Of a stretch of DNA of 64,000 nucleotides, positions 7,196 through 41,247 are shown piece by piece. This DNA is from Streptomyces hyderabadensis (lineage in GTDB: Bacteria > Actinomycetota > Actinomycetes > Streptomycetales > Streptomycetaceae). The DNA lies in the NCBI RefSeq assembly GCF_020404845.1, contig NZ_JAIOJZ010000001.1:372001-436000 (forward strand). Reading direction: 5' to 3'. The notes below the pieces were generated by a model. That model was not told where the DNA came from. It ran no database searches and was given only the letters and a program-made list of their open reading frames with translations. The translations under genes were made by a program, and so were the position numbers. Position 1 is the first letter of the stretch; every line of letters begins with the position of its first letter.

Positions 7196-7278
7196 CGCGG
7201 ACCCACGAGGACTCACGACGACTGACCCGGCCCGGCTCACACGAAACCAGGTCGCCCCCTCGGGGGCAGAGGCGGCAG

Positions 7279-7690
7279 ACGAGTCGGGCTGTACGCCGGG
7301 TTCTGTTCCGACGGGGCCTCGCGGTCCCGTCGGCGACGGCCATCCATCTAGGGCCGGCGTTGCCACCGGCCTCCAGCGGTCTACCCGCGGACTCGGGCGG
7401 GCAGCCCTCGGTCGTCCGCGCAGGGCCGCCCCTTCTTGCGAGGAGGCGTCCCCTCTTGACCTTGCTCCGGGTGGGGTTTACCTAGCTGCCCAGGTCGCCC
7501 TGGGCACTGGTGGTCTCTTACACCACCGTTTCACCCTTACCGGGGGCCGAAGCCTCCGGCGGTCTGCTTTCTGTGGCACTGTCCCGCGGGTCACCCCGGG
7601 TGGCCGTTAGCCATCACCCTGCCCTGTGGAGCCCGGACGTTCCTCGGGAAGTCCCGTGAGGGACTCCACGCGGCCGCCCGCCCGGCTCGT
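7279..7690 (-). ncRNA. rnpB: RNase P RNA (type A)
   Basis: Catalytic RNA of ribonuclease P, which matures tRNA 5' ends. About 410 nt on the minus strand. The conserved 5' core GAGGAACGTCCGGGCTCC, the ACAGGGCAGGGTGATGGCTAACGG region and the 3' core ACAGAAAGCAGACCGCC are all readable. A P1 helix forms between about 7681-7690 and 7279-7288 with one mismatch. A -10-like TACCAT is at 7705-7710. The exact ends are estimates. The 5' part lies inside the 3' end of the EamA gene. Confidence 0.96.
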
Positions 7691-34654: not shown

Positions 34655-34770
34655 GGCGTCGTCATCACCCGTACGGGGGGAAGCCGGTGCAATTCCGGCG
34701 CTGACCCGCAACCGTGAGCCGCCCGCCGGGTCCCTTGGGGCTCCGGGACGGTGAGCCGGACTGCCCCGCA
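34655..34770 (+). ncRNA. Cobalamin (adenosylcobalamin) riboswitch
   Basis: The B12 box and surrounding core are readable: GGGGAAGCCGGTGCAATTCC at 34677-34696, GCTGACCCGCAACCGTGAGC about 34700-34719, and the closing GTGAGCCGGACTGCC near 34751-34764. It lies 125 bases before the first gene of the surface-protein/ECF operon, so B12 binding should switch that operon off, probably by masking translation start or early termination. Ends are approximate. Confidence 0.95.
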
Positions 34771-34894
34771 CGGATGTGACCGGCTCACGTGCCCGGCGCC
34801 CGCCGGTGCACGGGCACCGTCGAGGCATACGGGGCCGAGCCGCCGGGGGTGCCCCGTGCTGCCGGGCCCGCACAGGGAAAGGCACCCGCCGCTC

Positions 34895-36148
34895 ATGAAC
34901 GTCCGCCGTCGCAGCAGCGCCGCGGCTCTGGCCGCCATAGCCGTGATCGGCGCCGCCACCGCGCCCGCAGTCGCCGCCGATCCGTCGCCGTCCGCCTCCG
35001 CGTCCCCGTCCGCACCCGCCGGGCTCTACGGGACCACCGACCCCCAGTACGACGGCGTGTGGCGCCAGTCCCTCGCGCTGCTCGCGCAGGACACGGCGGG
35101 CGTGGTCCCGTCCTCGACGGCCGTGAAGTGGCTCACGGACCAGCAGTGCGCGAACGGCGCCTTCGCCCCCTTCCGCGCCGACCCGGCGGCGGCCTGCGAC
35201 GCCAAGACCCCGGTCGACACCAACAACACGGCCGCCGCCGTCCAGGCCCTGTGGGCCGTCGGCGGACACGGCGACGTCGTCGAGGACGCCCTCGGCTGGC
35301 TGAAGTCCGTGCAGAACGAGGACGGCGGCTGGGGCTACAGCCCCGGCACCCCCAGCGACGTCAACTCCACCTCCGTCGTCATCGGCGCCCTGACCGCCAC
35401 GGAGACGGACCCCGGGAAGGTGGTCAAGGACGGCAAGTCCCCGTACGACGCGCTGCTGACCTTCGCCCTGCCCTGCGCGAAGGACAAGGGCGCGGGCGCC
35501 TTCGCCTTCCAGCCCGACAAGGACGGCAAGCTGCTCCCCAACGCGGACGCGACCGCCGCCGGTGTCCTCGGCGCGCTCGGCAAGGGCCTGGTCACCGAGG
35601 CCGGCGACAAGGCCGACGCCGCCTCGTGCACCGACTCGGACAAGCCCACCCGGGAGGGCGCCGCCGCCAACGCCGCCGCGTATCTCACCGCCACGCTCGC
35701 CAAGGACGGCCACCTCGTCTCCGCCCTCGGCGGCTCCGCCGACCAGCCCGACTACGGCAACACGGCCGACGCGGTGGTCGCCCTCGCCGCGCAGGGCGGG
35801 GCGGACCGGGCGGCCGAGCCGCTGGCCTGGCTGGAGAAGAACGCCGCGAAGTGGGCCGCGGAGAGCGGCCCGGCCGCCTACGCCCAGCTGATCTTCGCCG
35901 CCCACGCCACGGGCACCGACCCGCGCGACTTCGGTGGCACGGACCTGGTGGCGAAGCTGAACGCGACCGGACCGGCCCCGCAGGGTGCGGCGGCGAAGGA
36001 CACGGCCACCGCGAGCGACGCGGACCCGGCGGAGGAGAAGGACGACGAATCCGGCTTCGGCGTCTGGTGGTTCGTCGGCGTCTGCCTGGTCTTCGGCATC
36101 GGCATCGGCTTCCTGCTCAGCGGCCGCAACAAGAAGCAGCAGCCGTGA
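34895..36148 (+). CDS. Surface-anchored alpha/alpha-barrel protein under B12 control
   Basis: A 417-residue exported protein: signal peptide (about 1-29, AVAA), Ser/Pro/Ala linker, a helical repeat domain of about 330 residues with prenyltransferase/squalene-cyclase-like repeats (VDTNNTAAAVQALWAVGG, WLKSVQNEDGGWGYSPGTP, DYGNTADAVVALAAQGG), then a C-terminal transmembrane segment (about 388-409) and a basic tail. The alpha domain of human intrinsic factor and transcobalamin has this same alpha6-alpha6 barrel. First gene after the B12 riboswitch; overlaps the next gene by 4 nt. I infer extracellular cobalamin binding. Confidence 0.82.
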   Translation: MNVRRRSSAAALAAIAVIGAATAPAVAADPSPSASASPSAPAGLYGTTDPQYDGVWRQSLALLAQDTAGVVPSSTAVKWLTDQQCANGAFAPFRADPAAACDAKTPVDTNNTAAAVQALWAVGGHGDVVEDALGWLKSVQNEDGGWGYSPGTPSDVNSTSVVIGALTATETDPGKVVKDGKSPYDALLTFALPCAKDKGAGAFAFQPDKDGKLLPNADATAAGVLGALGKGLVTEAGDKADAASCTDSDKPTREGAAANAAAYLTATLAKDGHLVSALGGSADQPDYGNTADAVVALAAQGGADRAAEPLAWLEKNAAKWAAESGPAAYAQLIFAAHATGTDPRDFGGTDLVAKLNATGPAPQGAAAKDTATASDADPAEEKDDESGFGVWWFVGVCLVFGIGIGFLLSGRNKKQQP

Positions 36149-36813
36149 CGCCCCGCCGCCTCGCTCTTCTCCTCCTGGCCGCGTTCCTGCTGGTCGCGAA
36201 CGCGGGTCAGGCGCAGGCCGCCGGGTACCGCTACTGGTCCTTCTGGGACCGCGACGGCGGGACATGGGTCTACGCCACCCAGGGCCCATCCCTGGTCCGC
36301 CCCTCCGACGGCGATGTGCAGGGCTTCCGCTTCGCGGTGAGCGAGGACTCGGGCGACGCGGCCCAGCCGCGCGGCACCGCGGACTTCGCGACGATCTGCG
36401 CAAAGACCCCGGCCGAGGACGGCAGCAAGCGGGTGGCGCTGGTCCTGGACTTCGGCACGGCGTCCGACGCCCCGTCCGGCGAGACCCCGCCCGCCCCGCG
36501 CACGGCCTGCGCCCGGGTCTCCCCCGAGGCGACGACGGCCGACGCCCTGGCCGCCGTCGCCGGACCCCTGCGCTACGACACCAACGCCCTGCTGTGCGCG
36601 ATCGCGGGCTACCCGAAGTCGGGCTGCGGGGAGCAGGTGTCGCAGAAGGAGAACCGGACGACCACGGCAGCCCCGGAGACCGCGGCGGCCAAGGGGGACG
36701 GGGAGGACGGGGACGGCCCGTCGGTCGGCCTCTACGCGGGCATAGCGGTGGTGGCAGCCCTGGCCGCCGCGGCAACCTGGCAAGCAAGGCGGCGCAGAAA
36801 TGCACCCCGCTGA
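36145..36813 (+). CDS. SCO2322-type exported membrane-anchored protein
   Basis: A 222-residue protein with a signal peptide (1-26, AQAA), a beta-rich domain beginning GYRYWSFWDRDGGTWVYATQGP, a conserved cysteine pair region (ICAKTP, TACARV, LLCAIAGYPKSGCG) and a C-terminal transmembrane helix followed by Arg/Lys. It belongs to the actinobacterial family named after SCO2322, of unknown function. GTG overlaps the preceding stop by 4 nt. Position in a B12-riboswitch operon suggests help in cobalamin capture, perhaps as the counterpart of the DUF4430-type beta domain of transcobalamin. Confidence 0.8.
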   Translation: MTPRRLALLLLAAFLLVANAGQAQAAGYRYWSFWDRDGGTWVYATQGPSLVRPSDGDVQGFRFAVSEDSGDAAQPRGTADFATICAKTPAEDGSKRVALVLDFGTASDAPSGETPPAPRTACARVSPEATTADALAAVAGPLRYDTNALLCAIAGYPKSGCGEQVSQKENRTTTAAPETAAAKGDGEDGDGPSVGLYAGIAVVAALAAAATWQARRRRNAPR

Positions 36814-38053
36814 AGCCGCCCAACCTGCGGGCAGTCAGGCCGCCCAACCTGCGGGCAGTCAGGCCGCCCAGCCTGCGGGCAGTCGTGCCGCTGGGGCGGC
36901 ACGGGTGGGCGCAGGCGGCACCCTGTCAGCGCGGGCAAGCGCCCCCACCCCCGCCGCCACCCACCGGCACCGGGCAACCGCCCTGCACCCCGGCGCCTGG
37001 TGGCTCTGGGCGCTAGCCCTGGGCACCGCCGCCACCCGCACCACCAACCCCCTCCTCCTCGCCCTCCTCGTCACGGTCTCCGCCTACGTCGTCATCACCC
37101 GCCGCCCGCACACCCCCTGGTCCCGCTCCTACGGCGCCTTCGTCAAACTCGCCCTCGCCGTCCTCCTCATCCGCCTGCTGTTCACCACCGTCCTGGGCTC
37201 CCCCATCCCCGGCACCCACACCCTCCTCACCCTCCCCGAAGTCCCCCTCCCCGACTGGGCGCAGGGCATCCGCCTCGGCGGCCGGGTCACCGCGGAGGGC
37301 CTCACCTTCGCGCTGTACGACGCGATGAAGCTGGCCACCCTCCTCATCTGCGTCGGCGCCGCCAACGCCCTCGCCAACCCCTCCCGCCTCCTCAAGTCCC
37401 TCCCCGGCGCCCTCTACGAGATGGGCGTCGCCGTCGTCGTCGCCCTCACCTTCGCGCCGAACCTCATCGCCGACGTCCAGCGCCTGCGCGCCGCCCGCCG
37501 CCTGCGCGGCCGCCCCGACCGCGGCGTCCGGGGCCTGCTCCAGGTGGGGCTCCCCGTCCTGGAGGGCGCCCTGGAACGCTCCGTCGCCCTCGCCGCCGCG
37601 ATGGACGCCCGCGGCTACGGCCGTACCGCCCGGGTCCCGGCCCCCGTCCGCCGTACCACCGCCGCCCTCACCCTCGGCGGCCTGCTCGGCATCTGCGCCG
37701 GGACGTACGGCCTGCTGACCGCGGCGGGCGGCACGTACGGCATCCCCGTGCTGCTGGCCGGCGTCGCCGCCGCCGTCGGCGGCCTGTGGCTCGGCGGCCG
37801 GCGCACGGTCCGCACCCGCTACCGCCCCGACCGCTGGGACGCCCGCGCCTGGCTGGTCACCGCGTCAGGCGCGGCGGTGGCGGCGCTCCTGTTCCTGGCC
37901 GCCGCCCGCGACCCGGCCGCACTGCACCCGGGGGTGGTCCCGCTGGTCGCCCCGGCCCTCCCGCTGTGGCCGGCGGCGGCCGTACTCGTCGGGCTGCTCC
38001 CGGCGTTCATCACCCCCGCACCCGAGCCCGTATCCGCCAAGGAGCCGTCGTGA
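36800..38053 (+). CDS. ECF transporter T component (EcfT)
   Basis: Energy-coupling factor transmembrane subunit of 417 residues, CbiQ/EcfT family, which links the substrate-binding S component to the ATPases. Five or more membrane helices are followed by the coupling helices with MDARGYGRTAR (A-R-G type motif) near residue 270. The first 45 residues are an Ala/Gln/Ser-rich extension from a 24-bp triplicated sequence. ATG at 36800 lies 14 nt inside the previous gene; the stop overlaps the ATPase gene by 4 nt. A later start within the repeat region cannot be excluded. Confidence 0.88.
   Translation: MHPAEAAQPAGSQAAQPAGSQAAQPAGSRAAGAARVGAGGTLSARASAPTPAATHRHRATALHPGAWWLWALALGTAATRTTNPLLLALLVTVSAYVVITRRPHTPWSRSYGAFVKLALAVLLIRLLFTTVLGSPIPGTHTLLTLPEVPLPDWAQGIRLGGRVTAEGLTFALYDAMKLATLLICVGAANALANPSRLLKSLPGALYEMGVAVVVALTFAPNLIADVQRLRAARRLRGRPDRGVRGLLQVGLPVLEGALERSVALAAAMDARGYGRTARVPAPVRRTTAALTLGGLLGICAGTYGLLTAAGGTYGIPVLLAGVAAAVGGLWLGGRRTVRTRYRPDRWDARAWLVTASGAAVAALLFLAAARDPAALHPGVVPLVAPALPLWPAAAVLVGLLPAFITPAPEPVSAKEPS
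36815..36886. repeat. Three tandem 24-bp units inside the EcfT N-terminus
   Basis: Copies at 36815-36838, 36839-36862 and 36863-36886 are nearly identical and encode AAQPAGSQ repeats. They straddle nothing else and look like a replication-slippage expansion in a disordered, possibly dispensable extension. Confidence 0.85.
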
Positions 38054-39741
38054 TCCGCTTCGAGGACGTGTCGGTCACCTACGACGGCGCGACCGAACCC
38101 ACCGTCCGGGGCATCGACTTCGAGGTCCCCGAGGGCGAACTCGTGCTGCTCGCCGGTCCCTCCGGCGTCGGCAAGTCCACCGTCCTCGGCGCGGTCGGCG
38201 GCCTCGTCCCGCACTTCACCGGCGGCACGCTGAGCGGCCGGGTCACCGTGGCCGGCCGCGACACCCGCACCCACAAGCCGCGCGAACTCGCCGACGTGGT
38301 GGGCACGGTCGGCCAGGACCCGCTGTCGCACTTCGTGACCGACACCGTCGAGGACGAACTGGCCTACGGCATGGAGTCGTTGGGCCTCGCCCCGGACGTG
38401 ATGCGCCGCCGCGTCGAGGAGACCCTGGACCTGCTGGGCCTGTCCGACCTGCGCTCCCGCCCGATCGCCACGCTCTCCGGCGGCCAGCAGCAGCGGGTCG
38501 CCATCGGCTCGGTCCTCACCCCGCACCCCGACGTCCTGGTCCTGGACGAGCCCACCTCCGCCCTGGACCCCGCCGCCGCCGAGGAGGTGCTGGCCGTCCT
38601 CCAGCGCCTGGTCCACGACCTCGGTACGACGGTCCTGCTGGCCGAGCACCGCCTGGAGCGGGTCATCCAGTACGCCGACCAGGTCGTCCTGCTCCCGGCC
38701 CCCGGCGAGGCACCGCTCATCGGCGCCCCGGCGGACGTGATGGCCGTCTCCCCGGTGTACCCGCCGGTGGTGGAGCTGGGCAGGCTGGCGGGCTGGTCGC
38801 CGCTGCCGCTGACGATCCGGGACGCCCGCCGCCGGGCGTCCGGGCTGCGGGACGGCCTGGCCGACCGGCAGATCCCGGACCGCACCCCGCCGCCGTCCGC
38901 ACCGCTCCCGGCACCCCCCGCCCCCCGGCCCGCCCCCGCCCGGTGGCGCCGCCGCGGGAAGGCCCAGCAGGCCACCTCCTCCCCTGCCCCGTACGCCGCC
39001 GAGGTCTCGTCCCTCGCCGTGCGCCGCGACCGCGTGCAGGCCCTGCGCCACGTCGACCTGACGGTCGTCCCCGGCGAGACGGTCGCCCTGATGGGCCGCA
39101 ACGGCGCCGGGAAGTCGACGCTGCTCTCGGCACTCGTGGGCCTCGTCGCACCGTCGGCGGGTTCGGTGCGGGCCGGGGACGCCGTACCGCACCGCACGGC
39201 CCCCCGGGACCTCGTACGGCGGGTCGGCCTGGTTCCGCAGGAGCCCCGGGACCTGCTGTACGCCGACACGGTCGCCGCCGAGTGCGCGGCCGCCGACCGG
39301 GACGCGGATGCGGCGCCCGGCACCTGCCGTTCCCTGCTCTCCGAACTGCTCCCCGGCGTGGCGGACGACACGCACCCCCGTGACCTGTCGGAGGGTCAGC
39401 GCCTCACCCTCGCGCTGTCCGTCGTCCTGACCGCCCGTCCGCCCCTCCTCCTCCTGGACGAGCCGACGCGCGGCCTGGACTACGCGGCGAAGGCCCGGCT
39501 GGCCGGCATCCTGCGCGCCCTGGCGGCCGAGGGTCACGCGATCGTGCTGGCCACGCACGACGTGGAACTGGCCGCCGAGCTGGCCCACCGGGTGGTCCTG
39601 CTCGCCGAGGGCGAGGTGATCGCCGACGGCCCGGCCGCGGACGTGGTGGTGGCCTCCCCGTCCTACGCCCCGCAGGTGGCGAAGGTGCTGGCGCCGCGCA
39701 AGTGGCTGACCGTGGCCCAGGTGCGGGAGGCGCTGGCATGA
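38050..39741 (+). CDS. ECF transporter ATPase, two fused ABC domains
   Basis: A 563-residue protein that joins EcfA and EcfA' in one chain. Domain 1: Walker A GPSGVGKST (about 37-45), signature LSGGQQQRV, Walker B VLVLDEPTSALD. Domain 2 (from about 315): GRNGAGKST, LSEGQRLTLAL, LLLLDEPTRGLD. A Pro/Ala-rich linker of about 40 residues lies between. GTG start overlaps EcfT stop, and its stop overlaps the S-component start. It powers uptake through EcfT and the S component; the substrate is inferred to be cobalamin or a corrinoid precursor. Confidence 0.92.
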   Translation: MIRFEDVSVTYDGATEPTVRGIDFEVPEGELVLLAGPSGVGKSTVLGAVGGLVPHFTGGTLSGRVTVAGRDTRTHKPRELADVVGTVGQDPLSHFVTDTVEDELAYGMESLGLAPDVMRRRVEETLDLLGLSDLRSRPIATLSGGQQQRVAIGSVLTPHPDVLVLDEPTSALDPAAAEEVLAVLQRLVHDLGTTVLLAEHRLERVIQYADQVVLLPAPGEAPLIGAPADVMAVSPVYPPVVELGRLAGWSPLPLTIRDARRRASGLRDGLADRQIPDRTPPPSAPLPAPPAPRPAPARWRRRGKAQQATSSPAPYAAEVSSLAVRRDRVQALRHVDLTVVPGETVALMGRNGAGKSTLLSALVGLVAPSAGSVRAGDAVPHRTAPRDLVRRVGLVPQEPRDLLYADTVAAECAAADRDADAAPGTCRSLLSELLPGVADDTHPRDLSEGQRLTLALSVVLTARPPLLLLDEPTRGLDYAAKARLAGILRALAAEGHAIVLATHDVELAAELAHRVVLLAEGEVIADGPAADVVVASPSYAPQVAKVLAPRKWLTVAQVREALA

Positions 39742-40589
39742 CCGGCGGCTCCGCTCCGCAGCGCCAGGCGCGCGCCGTACGCCTCGGCCCCCGTTCGGTC
39801 GCCGCCCTGGTGCTGGTCAGCGCGGTGGGCGTGGCGGGCTTCGGGTGGCCGTTCCTGGCCCCGCCGGACGCCTCGCTGAACGCGCACGCGCAGGACGCGC
39901 CGTGGCTGTTCGCGGGCGTGCTGGTGCTGCTGGTGGCGGTGGTGGCGGCGACGATCTCGGAGTCGGGTCTCGGCCCGAAGGCCGTGGCGATGCTCGGCGT
40001 CCTGGCGGCGGCGGGCGCGGCCCTGCGTCCCATCGGCGCGGGGACGGCCGGCCTGGAGCCGATGTTCTTCCTCATGGTGCTCAGCGGCCGGGTCCTCGGC
40101 CCCGGCTTCGGCTTCGTGCTGGGCTCGATCACCATGTTCGCGTCCGCGCTGCTGACGGGCGGGGTGGGGCCGTGGATGCCGTTCCAGATGCTGGCGATGG
40201 GCTGGTTCACGATGGGCGCGGGCCTGCTGCCGGGCCCCGACCGGCTGCGCGGCCGCGCGGAGCTGCTGATGCTGGCGGCGTACGGCTTCCTGGCGGCCTT
40301 CGCCTACGGCACGGTGATGAACCTCGCGGGCTGGACCTTCATGAACACGCTCGCCTCGAACATCGCCTTCGACCCGGACGCCTCGGTCCCCGACAACCTG
40401 GCCCGCTTCCTGGCCTACTGCCTGGCCACGTCACTGGGCTGGGACGGCGGCCGCGCCGCCATGACGGTCGTGCTGACCCTCTCCCTCGGCACCCCGCTCC
40501 TGCGGGCCCTGCGCCGCGCGACCCGCAGGGCGGCCTTCGAGGCGCCGGTCACGTTCGAGCAGGCCGACGAGGTGAGCCGCCCCACGTGA
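39738..40589 (+). CDS. ECF transporter S component, predicted cobalamin-specific
   Basis: Substrate-binding membrane subunit of 283 residues with six hydrophobic helices. The family block GPKAVAMLGVLAAAGAALRPIGAGTAGLEPMFFLMVLSGRVLGPGFGF and the WMPFQMLAMGWFTMGAGLLP loop are typical of actinobacterial ECF S proteins encoded beside these surface proteins. Overlaps the ATPase gene by 4 nt; last gene of the riboswitch operon. Specificity is inferred only from the B12 riboswitch; the CbrT family is the known comparison. Confidence 0.88.
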   Translation: MTGGSAPQRQARAVRLGPRSVAALVLVSAVGVAGFGWPFLAPPDASLNAHAQDAPWLFAGVLVLLVAVVAATISESGLGPKAVAMLGVLAAAGAALRPIGAGTAGLEPMFFLMVLSGRVLGPGFGFVLGSITMFASALLTGGVGPWMPFQMLAMGWFTMGAGLLPGPDRLRGRAELLMLAAYGFLAAFAYGTVMNLAGWTFMNTLASNIAFDPDASVPDNLARFLAYCLATSLGWDGGRAAMTVVLTLSLGTPLLRALRRATRRAAFEAPVTFEQADEVSRPT

Positions 40590-40833
40590 GCCGCCTCACC
40601 TACGAAGCGGCCTCGTAGCCGGGGACCGCTCGCCGGCCGGGCCGCACGGCGCCCCGGCGCGGCACCGGCCACCGGCGCTACGACCCTCCTTAGCAAAAGG
40701 GACGATTGCGGACGACCGGCCCGCCTGTTTCCCTGAACCGGTCGCCAGGCGCCGACGCCCTCCCGGGCAGCGGCGCCGACGCATGCCGGGCCGGTGTGCG
40801 CCGACGCCCCTGTCCCCGAAGAAAGGCCCTCCG

Positions 40834-41247
40834 TTGACCGCCGCGTCCCTCCTCCGTTCCGTCGCCACCCCGAAGAAGGCCCTCGCGGGTGCCGCCCTGG
40901 CCGCGGCCACCTGCGGCTCCCTGATCGCCGCCGCGCCCGCGCAGGCCGCGACGCCGGCCTCCTCGGCGCAGGCGACCGCGAAGAAGATGATCGGCGACTC
41001 GGCCGAGTTCCAGTGCTTCTCGAAGATCGTCGACCACGAGAGCGACTGGGACATCCACGCCACCAACGCCTCCAGCGGCGCCTACGGCCTGGTCCAGGCC
41101 CTGCCGGGCTCGAAGATGGCCTCGGCGGGCTCCGACTGGAAGACCAACGCGGCCACCCAGATCGAGTGGGGCCTGGACTACATGAAGGACCGCTACGGCA
41201 GCGCCTGCGACGCCTGGAGCTTCTGGCAGTCCAACGGCTGGTACTGA
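40834..41247 (+). CDS. Secreted lysozyme/transglycosylase-like protein
   Basis: Exported 137-residue protein. Signal peptide of about 39 residues ending AQAA, then a compact domain with CFSKIVDHESDWDIHATNASSGAYGLVQALPGSKM, the SLT/aggregation-promoting-factor type with catalytic Glu in DHESDW; ends DRYGSACDAWSFWQSNGWY. It should cut peptidoglycan glycan strands. Two cysteines may form a disulfide. TTG at 40834 is taken because AAAGG lies 8 bases upstream and the signal peptide starts there. Separate from the ECF operon (244-base gap in which I see no further element). Confidence 0.88.
   Translation: MTAASLLRSVATPKKALAGAALAAATCGSLIAAAPAQAATPASSAQATAKKMIGDSAEFQCFSKIVDHESDWDIHATNASSGAYGLVQALPGSKMASAGSDWKTNAATQIEWGLDYMKDRYGSACDAWSFWQSNGWY

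Follow-up and report, generated by a model that had tools for sequence, protein, structure and literature searches.

The 64,000-nucleotide stretch of Streptomyces hyderabadensis DNA analyzed here (contig NZ_JAIOJZ010000001.1, positions 372,001 to 436,000; hereafter, the window) carries a five-gene operon preceded by a cobalamin riboswitch. The operon encodes an SCO2321-family alpha/alpha toroid (gene 1, P0001), an SCO2322-family beta protein (gene 2, P0002), and the components of an energy-coupling factor (ECF) transporter. Probably, it is a corrinoid-scavenging operon in which a split, transcobalamin-like surface binder feeds a CbrT-like ECF permease under riboswitch control. It is also likely, if with somewhat less confidence, that SCO2321 and SCO2322 represent a split transcobalamin with both halves permuted, i.e., a two-protein corrinoid clamp of Streptomyces and B12-auxotrophic actinobacteria, whose kinship with the animal proteins is hidden by the permutations.

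In the proposed mechanism, plentiful B12 would turn the operon off via the riboswitch, and low B12 would release it. The toroid and the beta-grasp DUF4430-like domain of gene 2, both anchored to the exterior side of the membrane, would close from two sides on the corrinoid (vitamin B12, probably its precursors too), mirroring the two transcobalamin domains within one chain. The clamp would then pass its cargo to the CbrT-like S component, and a dedicated EcfT/EcfAA' module would drive the import.

The five genes (34895-40589; Table 1) are all located on the forward strand, the neighbors overlapping by 4, 14, 4, and 4 nt in the list of open reading frames (ORFs), as noted in a preliminary description of this DNA. 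Its assignment of the last three genes to EcfT, a fused two-domain ATPase, and an S component was likewise borne out: the complete ECF set, i.e., PF02361, PF00005 (two stretches), and PF12822, was recognized above the cut-offs. The full five-gene set in identical order and strand was present in 68 of the 80 loci found with the gene-1 family; in the remaining 12, the available sequence stops at most 484 bases from the last gene found. Such an arrangement goes far beyond what chance would produce. Gene 2 was found in 44/45 genomes of the window's genus (its own genome counted) and gene 1 in 10/10; gene 1 shares 90% identity with that of Streptomyces sp. MH60. In a sample of 61 related, non-independent genomes of the family, gene 1 was detected in 51 and gene 2 in 49: 48 genomes harbored both, nine neither, three gene 1 only, and one gene 2 only.

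Table 1. Features of the operon and their positions in the window.
Feature	Position	Strand	Evidence
Cobalamin riboswitch, short form	34655..34790	+	RF00174 match 34678-34781
SCO2321-family alpha/alpha toroid (gene 1, P0001), 417 aa	34895..36148	+	NF053823 616.5 bits, cut-off 300
SCO2322-family beta protein (gene 2, P0002), 222 aa, GTG start	36145..36813	+	NF040672 236.7 bits; NCBIfam GPS-CTERM anchor domain 36.3 bits, cut-off 28
EcfT, CbiQ family (gene 3), 417 aa	36800..38053	+	PF02361 33.7 bits, cut-off 25
Fused two-domain ATPase EcfA-EcfA' (gene 4), 563 aa, GTG start	38050..39741	+	PF00005, 2 stretches, E 2.5e-53
ECF S component, CbrT-like (gene 5, P0005), 283 aa	39738..40589	+	PF12822 31.0 bits, cut-off 30.7

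The product of gene 1 had been described as an exported helical barrel with a C-terminal anchor. The signal-like N-terminus and the C-terminal transmembrane segment were both read by eye, and the AlphaFold2 model based on 59 sequences (mean predicted local distance difference test score, pLDDT, 83.7; 280 of the 417 residues at 90 or above) is indeed an alpha/alpha toroid. Among the matches listed, the model resembled toroid enzymes with VIA Z of 18.6-23.5 over 235-274 residues, the best being drimenyl diphosphate synthase (Z 23.5) and squalene-hopene cyclase (Z 23.4), to which the closest sequence matches also belong. The catalytic motif of class II terpene cyclases and squalene-hopene cyclase is DxDD. 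Asn110 of gene 1 aligns with the middle Asp of this motif, and D-x-N replaces DxDD in 59/59 homologues of alignment A3 and in 22/23 of alignment A1, the single homologue with Asp there being that of L020. Hence, with this Asp lost, gene 1 reads as a binding toroid and not as a cyclizing one. Four cysteines are invariant in the 59 sequences.

Judging by sequence comparisons, the gene-1 toroid appears to be a circular permutant of the toroids encoded in operons containing DUF4430 (PF14478), a domain of the C-terminus of transcobalamin (PMC4350170). The segment F-[GA]-G-x-[DN]-[LY]-[IV] is located at the end of the window toroid and within the first third of the toroids from the DUF4430-containing operons. 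When the window family was rotated to residue 252, its score against eight such toroids rose to 232 over 268 columns, compared with 158 over 169 columns unrotated, whereas in the control with same-type toroids the native order was preferred (442.6 at residue 42 vs. 341.9 at residue 252). The internal repeats of a toroid could mimic a rotation; yet the same-type control favors the native order, and the eight toroids of the DUF4430-containing operons favor the rotated one.

For gene 2, sequence comparisons support a circularly permuted DUF4430-like domain, i.e., a putative relative of the transcobalamin C-terminal, SLBB-type beta-grasp. In accordance with the preliminary description of an anchored, beta-rich, cysteine-containing product, the AlphaFold2 model (53 sequences, pLDDT 85.4) is beta-rich, the cysteines C85, C122, C151, and C161 are kept in 53/53 sequences, and the C-terminus matches the GPS-CTERM anchor domain; a signal peptide for export was read from the sequence. 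The strands are predicted at residues 27-37, 40-43, 58-66, 95-102, and 119-125, followed by a helix (131-138) and a hairpin (142-144/150-153). It is proposed that the model's order S3-S4-S5-S1-S2-helix-hairpin corresponds to the transcobalamin-type topology rotated at the hairpin/S3 junction. At the level of secondary structure, the hairpin strands of gene 2 come after the helix as they do in transcobalamin-type domains, whose SLBB topology features a beta-hairpin insert in this place (PMC1796856, PMC1949818). A conserved ligand-binding aromatic residue of those domains is reported to sit in that hairpin (PMC1949818); Tyr144 of gene 2, inside the predicted hairpin, is invariant in 53 sequences.

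The segment order of gene 2 was established via its counterparts in related operons. Proteins encoded in its position (slot 2) exist in two segment orders, permuted and non-permuted. The profile of six non-permuted slot-2 proteins matched the window-type proteins as two swapped pieces (in L116, positions 93-152 followed by 13-97). In hhalign comparisons with 17 non-permuted sequences, the native order of gene 2 aligned over 51 columns (E 2e-10) and the rotated one over 116 columns (E 6e-14). The rotation scan against the non-permuted proteins peaked near residues 86-92 (84.7 vs. 63.9 for the native order), and the control scan against window-type homologues peaked at the native order.

The link to DUF4430 was obtained with a merged family comprising the rotated window type and the non-permuted proteins, which hhalign aligned to DUF4430 over 99 columns, the first strand included (93.5%, E 2.2e-7). 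The score was 43.1, whereas none of 200 column shuffles exceeded 16.8 and the reversed profile gave 15.2. The unrotated merged profile was the best in the rotation scan; rotations by 8 to 104 columns still reached 20.7-41.1, because the halves match alone. Against the bare 72-position DUF4430 core, gene 2 gave an hhalign E-value of only 0.0045-0.012 and the non-permuted set 0.028; both comparisons improved once the first strands were added.

DUF4430 proteins themselves accompany EcfA, EcfS, and a toroid in other actinobacteria (L269-L273, L276, L280, and L284), with EcfT recognized in six of these eight loci. A cobalamin riboswitch was found in 8/8 of the toroid + DUF4430 loci vs. 0/3 of the scanned DUF4430/ECF loci devoid of a toroid; the scan comprised 11 loci hand-picked from the 20 loci L265-L284. 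A second scan, to which L281 and L283 were added, revealed a match in 9/11 loci (none in L130 and L135). In 8/11 loci, the match lies upstream of, or overlaps, the listed start of the toroid or DUF4430 gene on the same strand; in L281, match and gene differ in strand. L265, L268, L274, L277-L279, L282, and L115-L128 stood outside the riboswitch scans. L281, a second system from a genome of the window's genus, brings together a non-permuted slot-2 protein, EcfT, EcfA, EcfS, a non-permuted toroid, and a DUF4430 protein.

In four paralogous operons of the window's family, a single ORF of 1002-1281 residues contains the slot-2 domain followed by toroid repeats (L137:2996-6841, L138:2912-6607, L139:7941-10949, and L140:5352-8456), and the ECF genes adjoin it. 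The repeats were recognized by Pfam Prenyltrans in L137 and by gene 1 alone in L138-L140; in L137, a riboswitch is present at the ORF start. The cargo of these fusion operons may be different from that of the window's operon.

Other large ORFs were encountered near such genes. A 1350-residue ORF adjoining a toroid gene (L141:8647-12699) combines fn3 and NHL repeats with an N-terminal slot-2 domain in the non-permuted order. ORFs of 848-893 residues are located between the riboswitch and the DUF4430 gene (L270:2574-5255, L272:3259-5862, L273:7379-9988, and also in L269, L271, and L276); the three that were scanned match the PQQ_2 beta-propeller and DUF5719. The B12-binding protein BtuG is also a beta-propeller; by analogy, these ORFs perhaps encode a further surface corrinoid protein. 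Giant ORFs of 1537-1846 residues with two to three DUF4430 matches each reside by ECF genes in L274:1336-5949, L277:134-5674, and L278:6907-12411; no toroid match was found in these three loci, and a beta-propeller match in L274 was below the cut-off.

The riboswitch of the window's operon is of a short form. It scored 28.1 bits with RF00174 against a gathering threshold of 31.5 (E 2.5e-5 in a 501-base search), the match spanning model positions 46-168 only, and the window-wide scan at the gathering threshold did not list it. A chance match was ruled out by the conservation of the leader among the orthologues: RF00174 or RF01689 was found at E<=0.1 in 9 of the 12 orthologous loci (no match in L012, L013, and L014), and the gathering score of RF00174 was reached by six of the nine named Streptomyces orthologous leaders. 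Thus, of the "canonical cobalamin riboswitch" of the preliminary description, the riboswitch stands, and "canonical" has to be dropped.

RF00174 marks five places in the source genome. The other four precede the following genes: a BtuF-type one (Peripla_BP_2) that has an ABC ATPase close by, CbiM, the cobalamin-independent methionine synthase MetE, and a ribonucleotide reductase. Together, the riboswitch-linked genes form a coherent B12 regulon. Since CbiM and a BtuF-type gene are linked to riboswitches elsewhere, cobalt and BtuF-type import already have loci of their own.

The relationship of the S component to CbrT was revealed by a profile of 15 S components (A7: the window, other genera, and DUF4430 operons), which matched chain A of 6FNP with E 7.6e-19 over positions 75-269. 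This was the sole solved chain at E<0.1, the next ECF chain being FolT (E 5.4). The 6FNP structure is that of ECF-CbrT, for which transport of both cobalamin and cobinamide was demonstrated (PMC5997447). The ATPase of the operon passes the cbiO subfamily model, and ECF_ATPase models are among its best matches, below their own cut-offs. Near the start of the ecfT frame, a 24-bp tandem repeat (3.2 copies, 36815-36891) encodes an AAQPAGSQ repeat; the true EcfT start may lie downstream of this N-terminal repeat.

Further evidence on the cargo comes from 137 genomes sampled elsewhere in the class, in which the toroid was called at E<=1e-15, weaker homologues being counted as absent and incomplete genomes kept. 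CbiC was present in 2/38 genomes with the toroid vs. 53/99 others (Fisher p 4.7e-8, an indicative value as related genomes are non-independent). At the same time, MetH or methylmalonyl-CoA mutase (MCM) was found in 38/38 toroid genomes; one genome without MCM, absent from the listing, was identified by deduction as G245, which lies outside the toroid set. As 36 of the 38 carriers are devoid of CbiC, seemingly lacking the ability to build the corrin ring, yet all possess B12 enzymes, the cargo is likely a corrinoid rather than cobalt.

Taken at the sequence level, the CbrT match, the DUF4430 partners, the permutation of gene 2, the fusions, and the CbiC-less carriers support the split transcobalamin-type binder feeding an ECF permease suggested in the preliminary description. 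Still, a number of observations weigh against it. The PF14478 model misses P0002 both natively and rotated (three rotated sequences), and it is also unmatched by ten proteins of and near slot 2. A PDB profile search with the gene-2 family returned no match, and the Foldseek and VIA results for gene 2 peaked at Z 2.3, none of them credible. Taken alone, gene 2 matches DUF4430 equally well in the native (83.3%) and rotated (82.8%) order, because just one half aligns; its order, therefore, rests on the bridge of non-permuted slot-2 proteins and not on DUF4430. The hhalign E-values represent single comparisons, and the controls lacked an unrelated beta-grasp family. The DUF4430 profile reached Transcobalamin-1 (4KKI) at E 0.2 only, behind an unrelated SUI1 homologue (0.038), and no significant direct sequence or fold match to the animal carriers was obtained. 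Among the fold matches listed, neither gene 1 (whose best are terpene cyclases and sugar enzymes) nor gene 2 has a transcobalamin; the aligners are sequential and can miss permuted folds. As a single sequence, P0005 finds no ECF chain in the PDB. The sampled genomes are related and non-independent, and the source genome possesses CbiC along with the BtuF-type system, leaving the need for a second importer unexplained.

The rival that survives best is a B12 ECF importer without a joint clamp, in which the toroid alone would bind, or the surface proteins would take corrinoid from other carriers or fasten the complex to the envelope. All the substrate evidence, i.e., the riboswitch, the CbrT-like S component, and the CbiC-less carriers, fits it as well; beta-propeller genes accompany related operons; and slot-2-like and DUF4430 genes coexist within one operon (L281, L283), which implies that the beta proteins may have several roles. 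It is, nevertheless, considered unlikely: genes 1 and 2 neighbor each other and tend to be present together, some genomes encode their domains in a single fused ORF, and both genes are homologous to the two halves of the predicted toroid + SLBB binders (PMC1796856).

A riboswitch-controlled importer of cobalt or another metal is improbable. In its favor, EcfT is a CbiQ-family protein, the ATPase passes the cbiO model as mentioned above, and cobalt transporters are among the known riboswitch targets (PMC3766115). The cobalt importer was, however, rejected due to the S component being of the CbrT-like PF12822 type and not CbiM, the separate riboswitch-linked CbiM locus, and the lack of CbiC in most carriers elsewhere in the class. 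The least probable alternative is an exported toroid enzyme, such as a terpene cyclase, encoded by gene 1 in an operon for the handling of a lipid or a sugar: the nearest sequence and fold matches of gene 1 are cyclases, but an active cyclase was rejected on the loss of the DxDD Asp, the product is exported, and the operon belongs to the B12 regulon.

The concept of a bacterial two-domain B12 scavenger predates this analysis. Burroughs et al. (2007; PMC1796856) predicted toroid + SLBB proteins encoded with CbiO/CbiQ genes, chiefly in low-GC Gram-positives; the clade also included planctomycete, animal and, less often, euryarchaeal members. In that account, the carriers usually lack key enzymes of B12 synthesis, and a transfer to animals was proposed. 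The operon of the window shares with this clade a secreted or anchored toroid and beta-grasp, ECF-type genes, B12-synthesis-poor carriers, and the proposed scavenging; unlike in that clade, as far as the source describes it, the halves are separate membrane-anchored proteins, both seemingly permuted, with gene 2 missed by the DUF4430 model. What is new is a split actinobacterial form with both halves permuted, along with a proposed function for two families that had none assigned. Consequently, the statement of the preliminary description that no system of this design was described in Streptomyces holds for that genus, given that neither the Streptomyces form nor the permutation was described in the literature matches listed (most subscription papers and all preprints lie outside this scope), and fails for the design, predicted elsewhere in 2007. 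The only literature match for the tags SCO2321 to SCO2325 concerns, by its title, an unrelated transdermal peptide.

As to other known systems, the animal transcobalamin, haptocorrin, and intrinsic factor similarly combine one alpha/alpha toroid with one DUF4430/SLBB domain in a proposed B12 sandwich, but each is a single soluble chain, whereas the window encodes two proteins. With the chains reordered, the kinship to transcobalamin may have stayed hidden. The ECF module of Lactobacillus is shared among S components; in contrast, the window's operon has a dedicated module, a fused ATPase, and two surface proteins. Common to it and ECF-CbrT of Lactobacillus delbrueckii (PMC5997447) are a CbrT-homologous S component, ECF ATPases, and EcfT. 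Like the proposed clamp, BtuG of Bacteroides is a surface protein capturing B12 for a transporter, but, unlike genes 1 and 2, it is a lipoprotein working with the outer-membrane BtuB (PMC6143338). An ECF module behind a cobalamin riboswitch in acI actinobacteria was suggested to be a cobalamin transporter (PMC5301498); likened by description only, it shares the riboswitch-ECF layout, and toroid or beta proteins are not mentioned in the passages considered.

The proposed function gives concrete, testable content to NCBIfam families named by locus tag only (SCO2321 and SCO2322), which nearly all sampled genomes of the window's genus possess. With it, the range of the predicted bacterial transcobalamin system would grow to include Actinomycetia and, among them, small genomes lacking CbiC. 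The proposed function is also relevant to the idea, put forward in 2007, that bacterial scavengers of this kind were the ancestors of the animal B12 carriers. It is unusual that both partners of one proposed binding device seem permuted; the permuted, non-permuted, and fused forms can now be compared.

Directly downstream of the operon (40783-41247, forward strand), a small exported protein is encoded, which is transglycosylase-like by eye, with no Pfam match at 1e-5. Elsewhere in the window, a bacterial RNase P RNA of class A is located at 7276-7689 on the reverse strand (274 bits).

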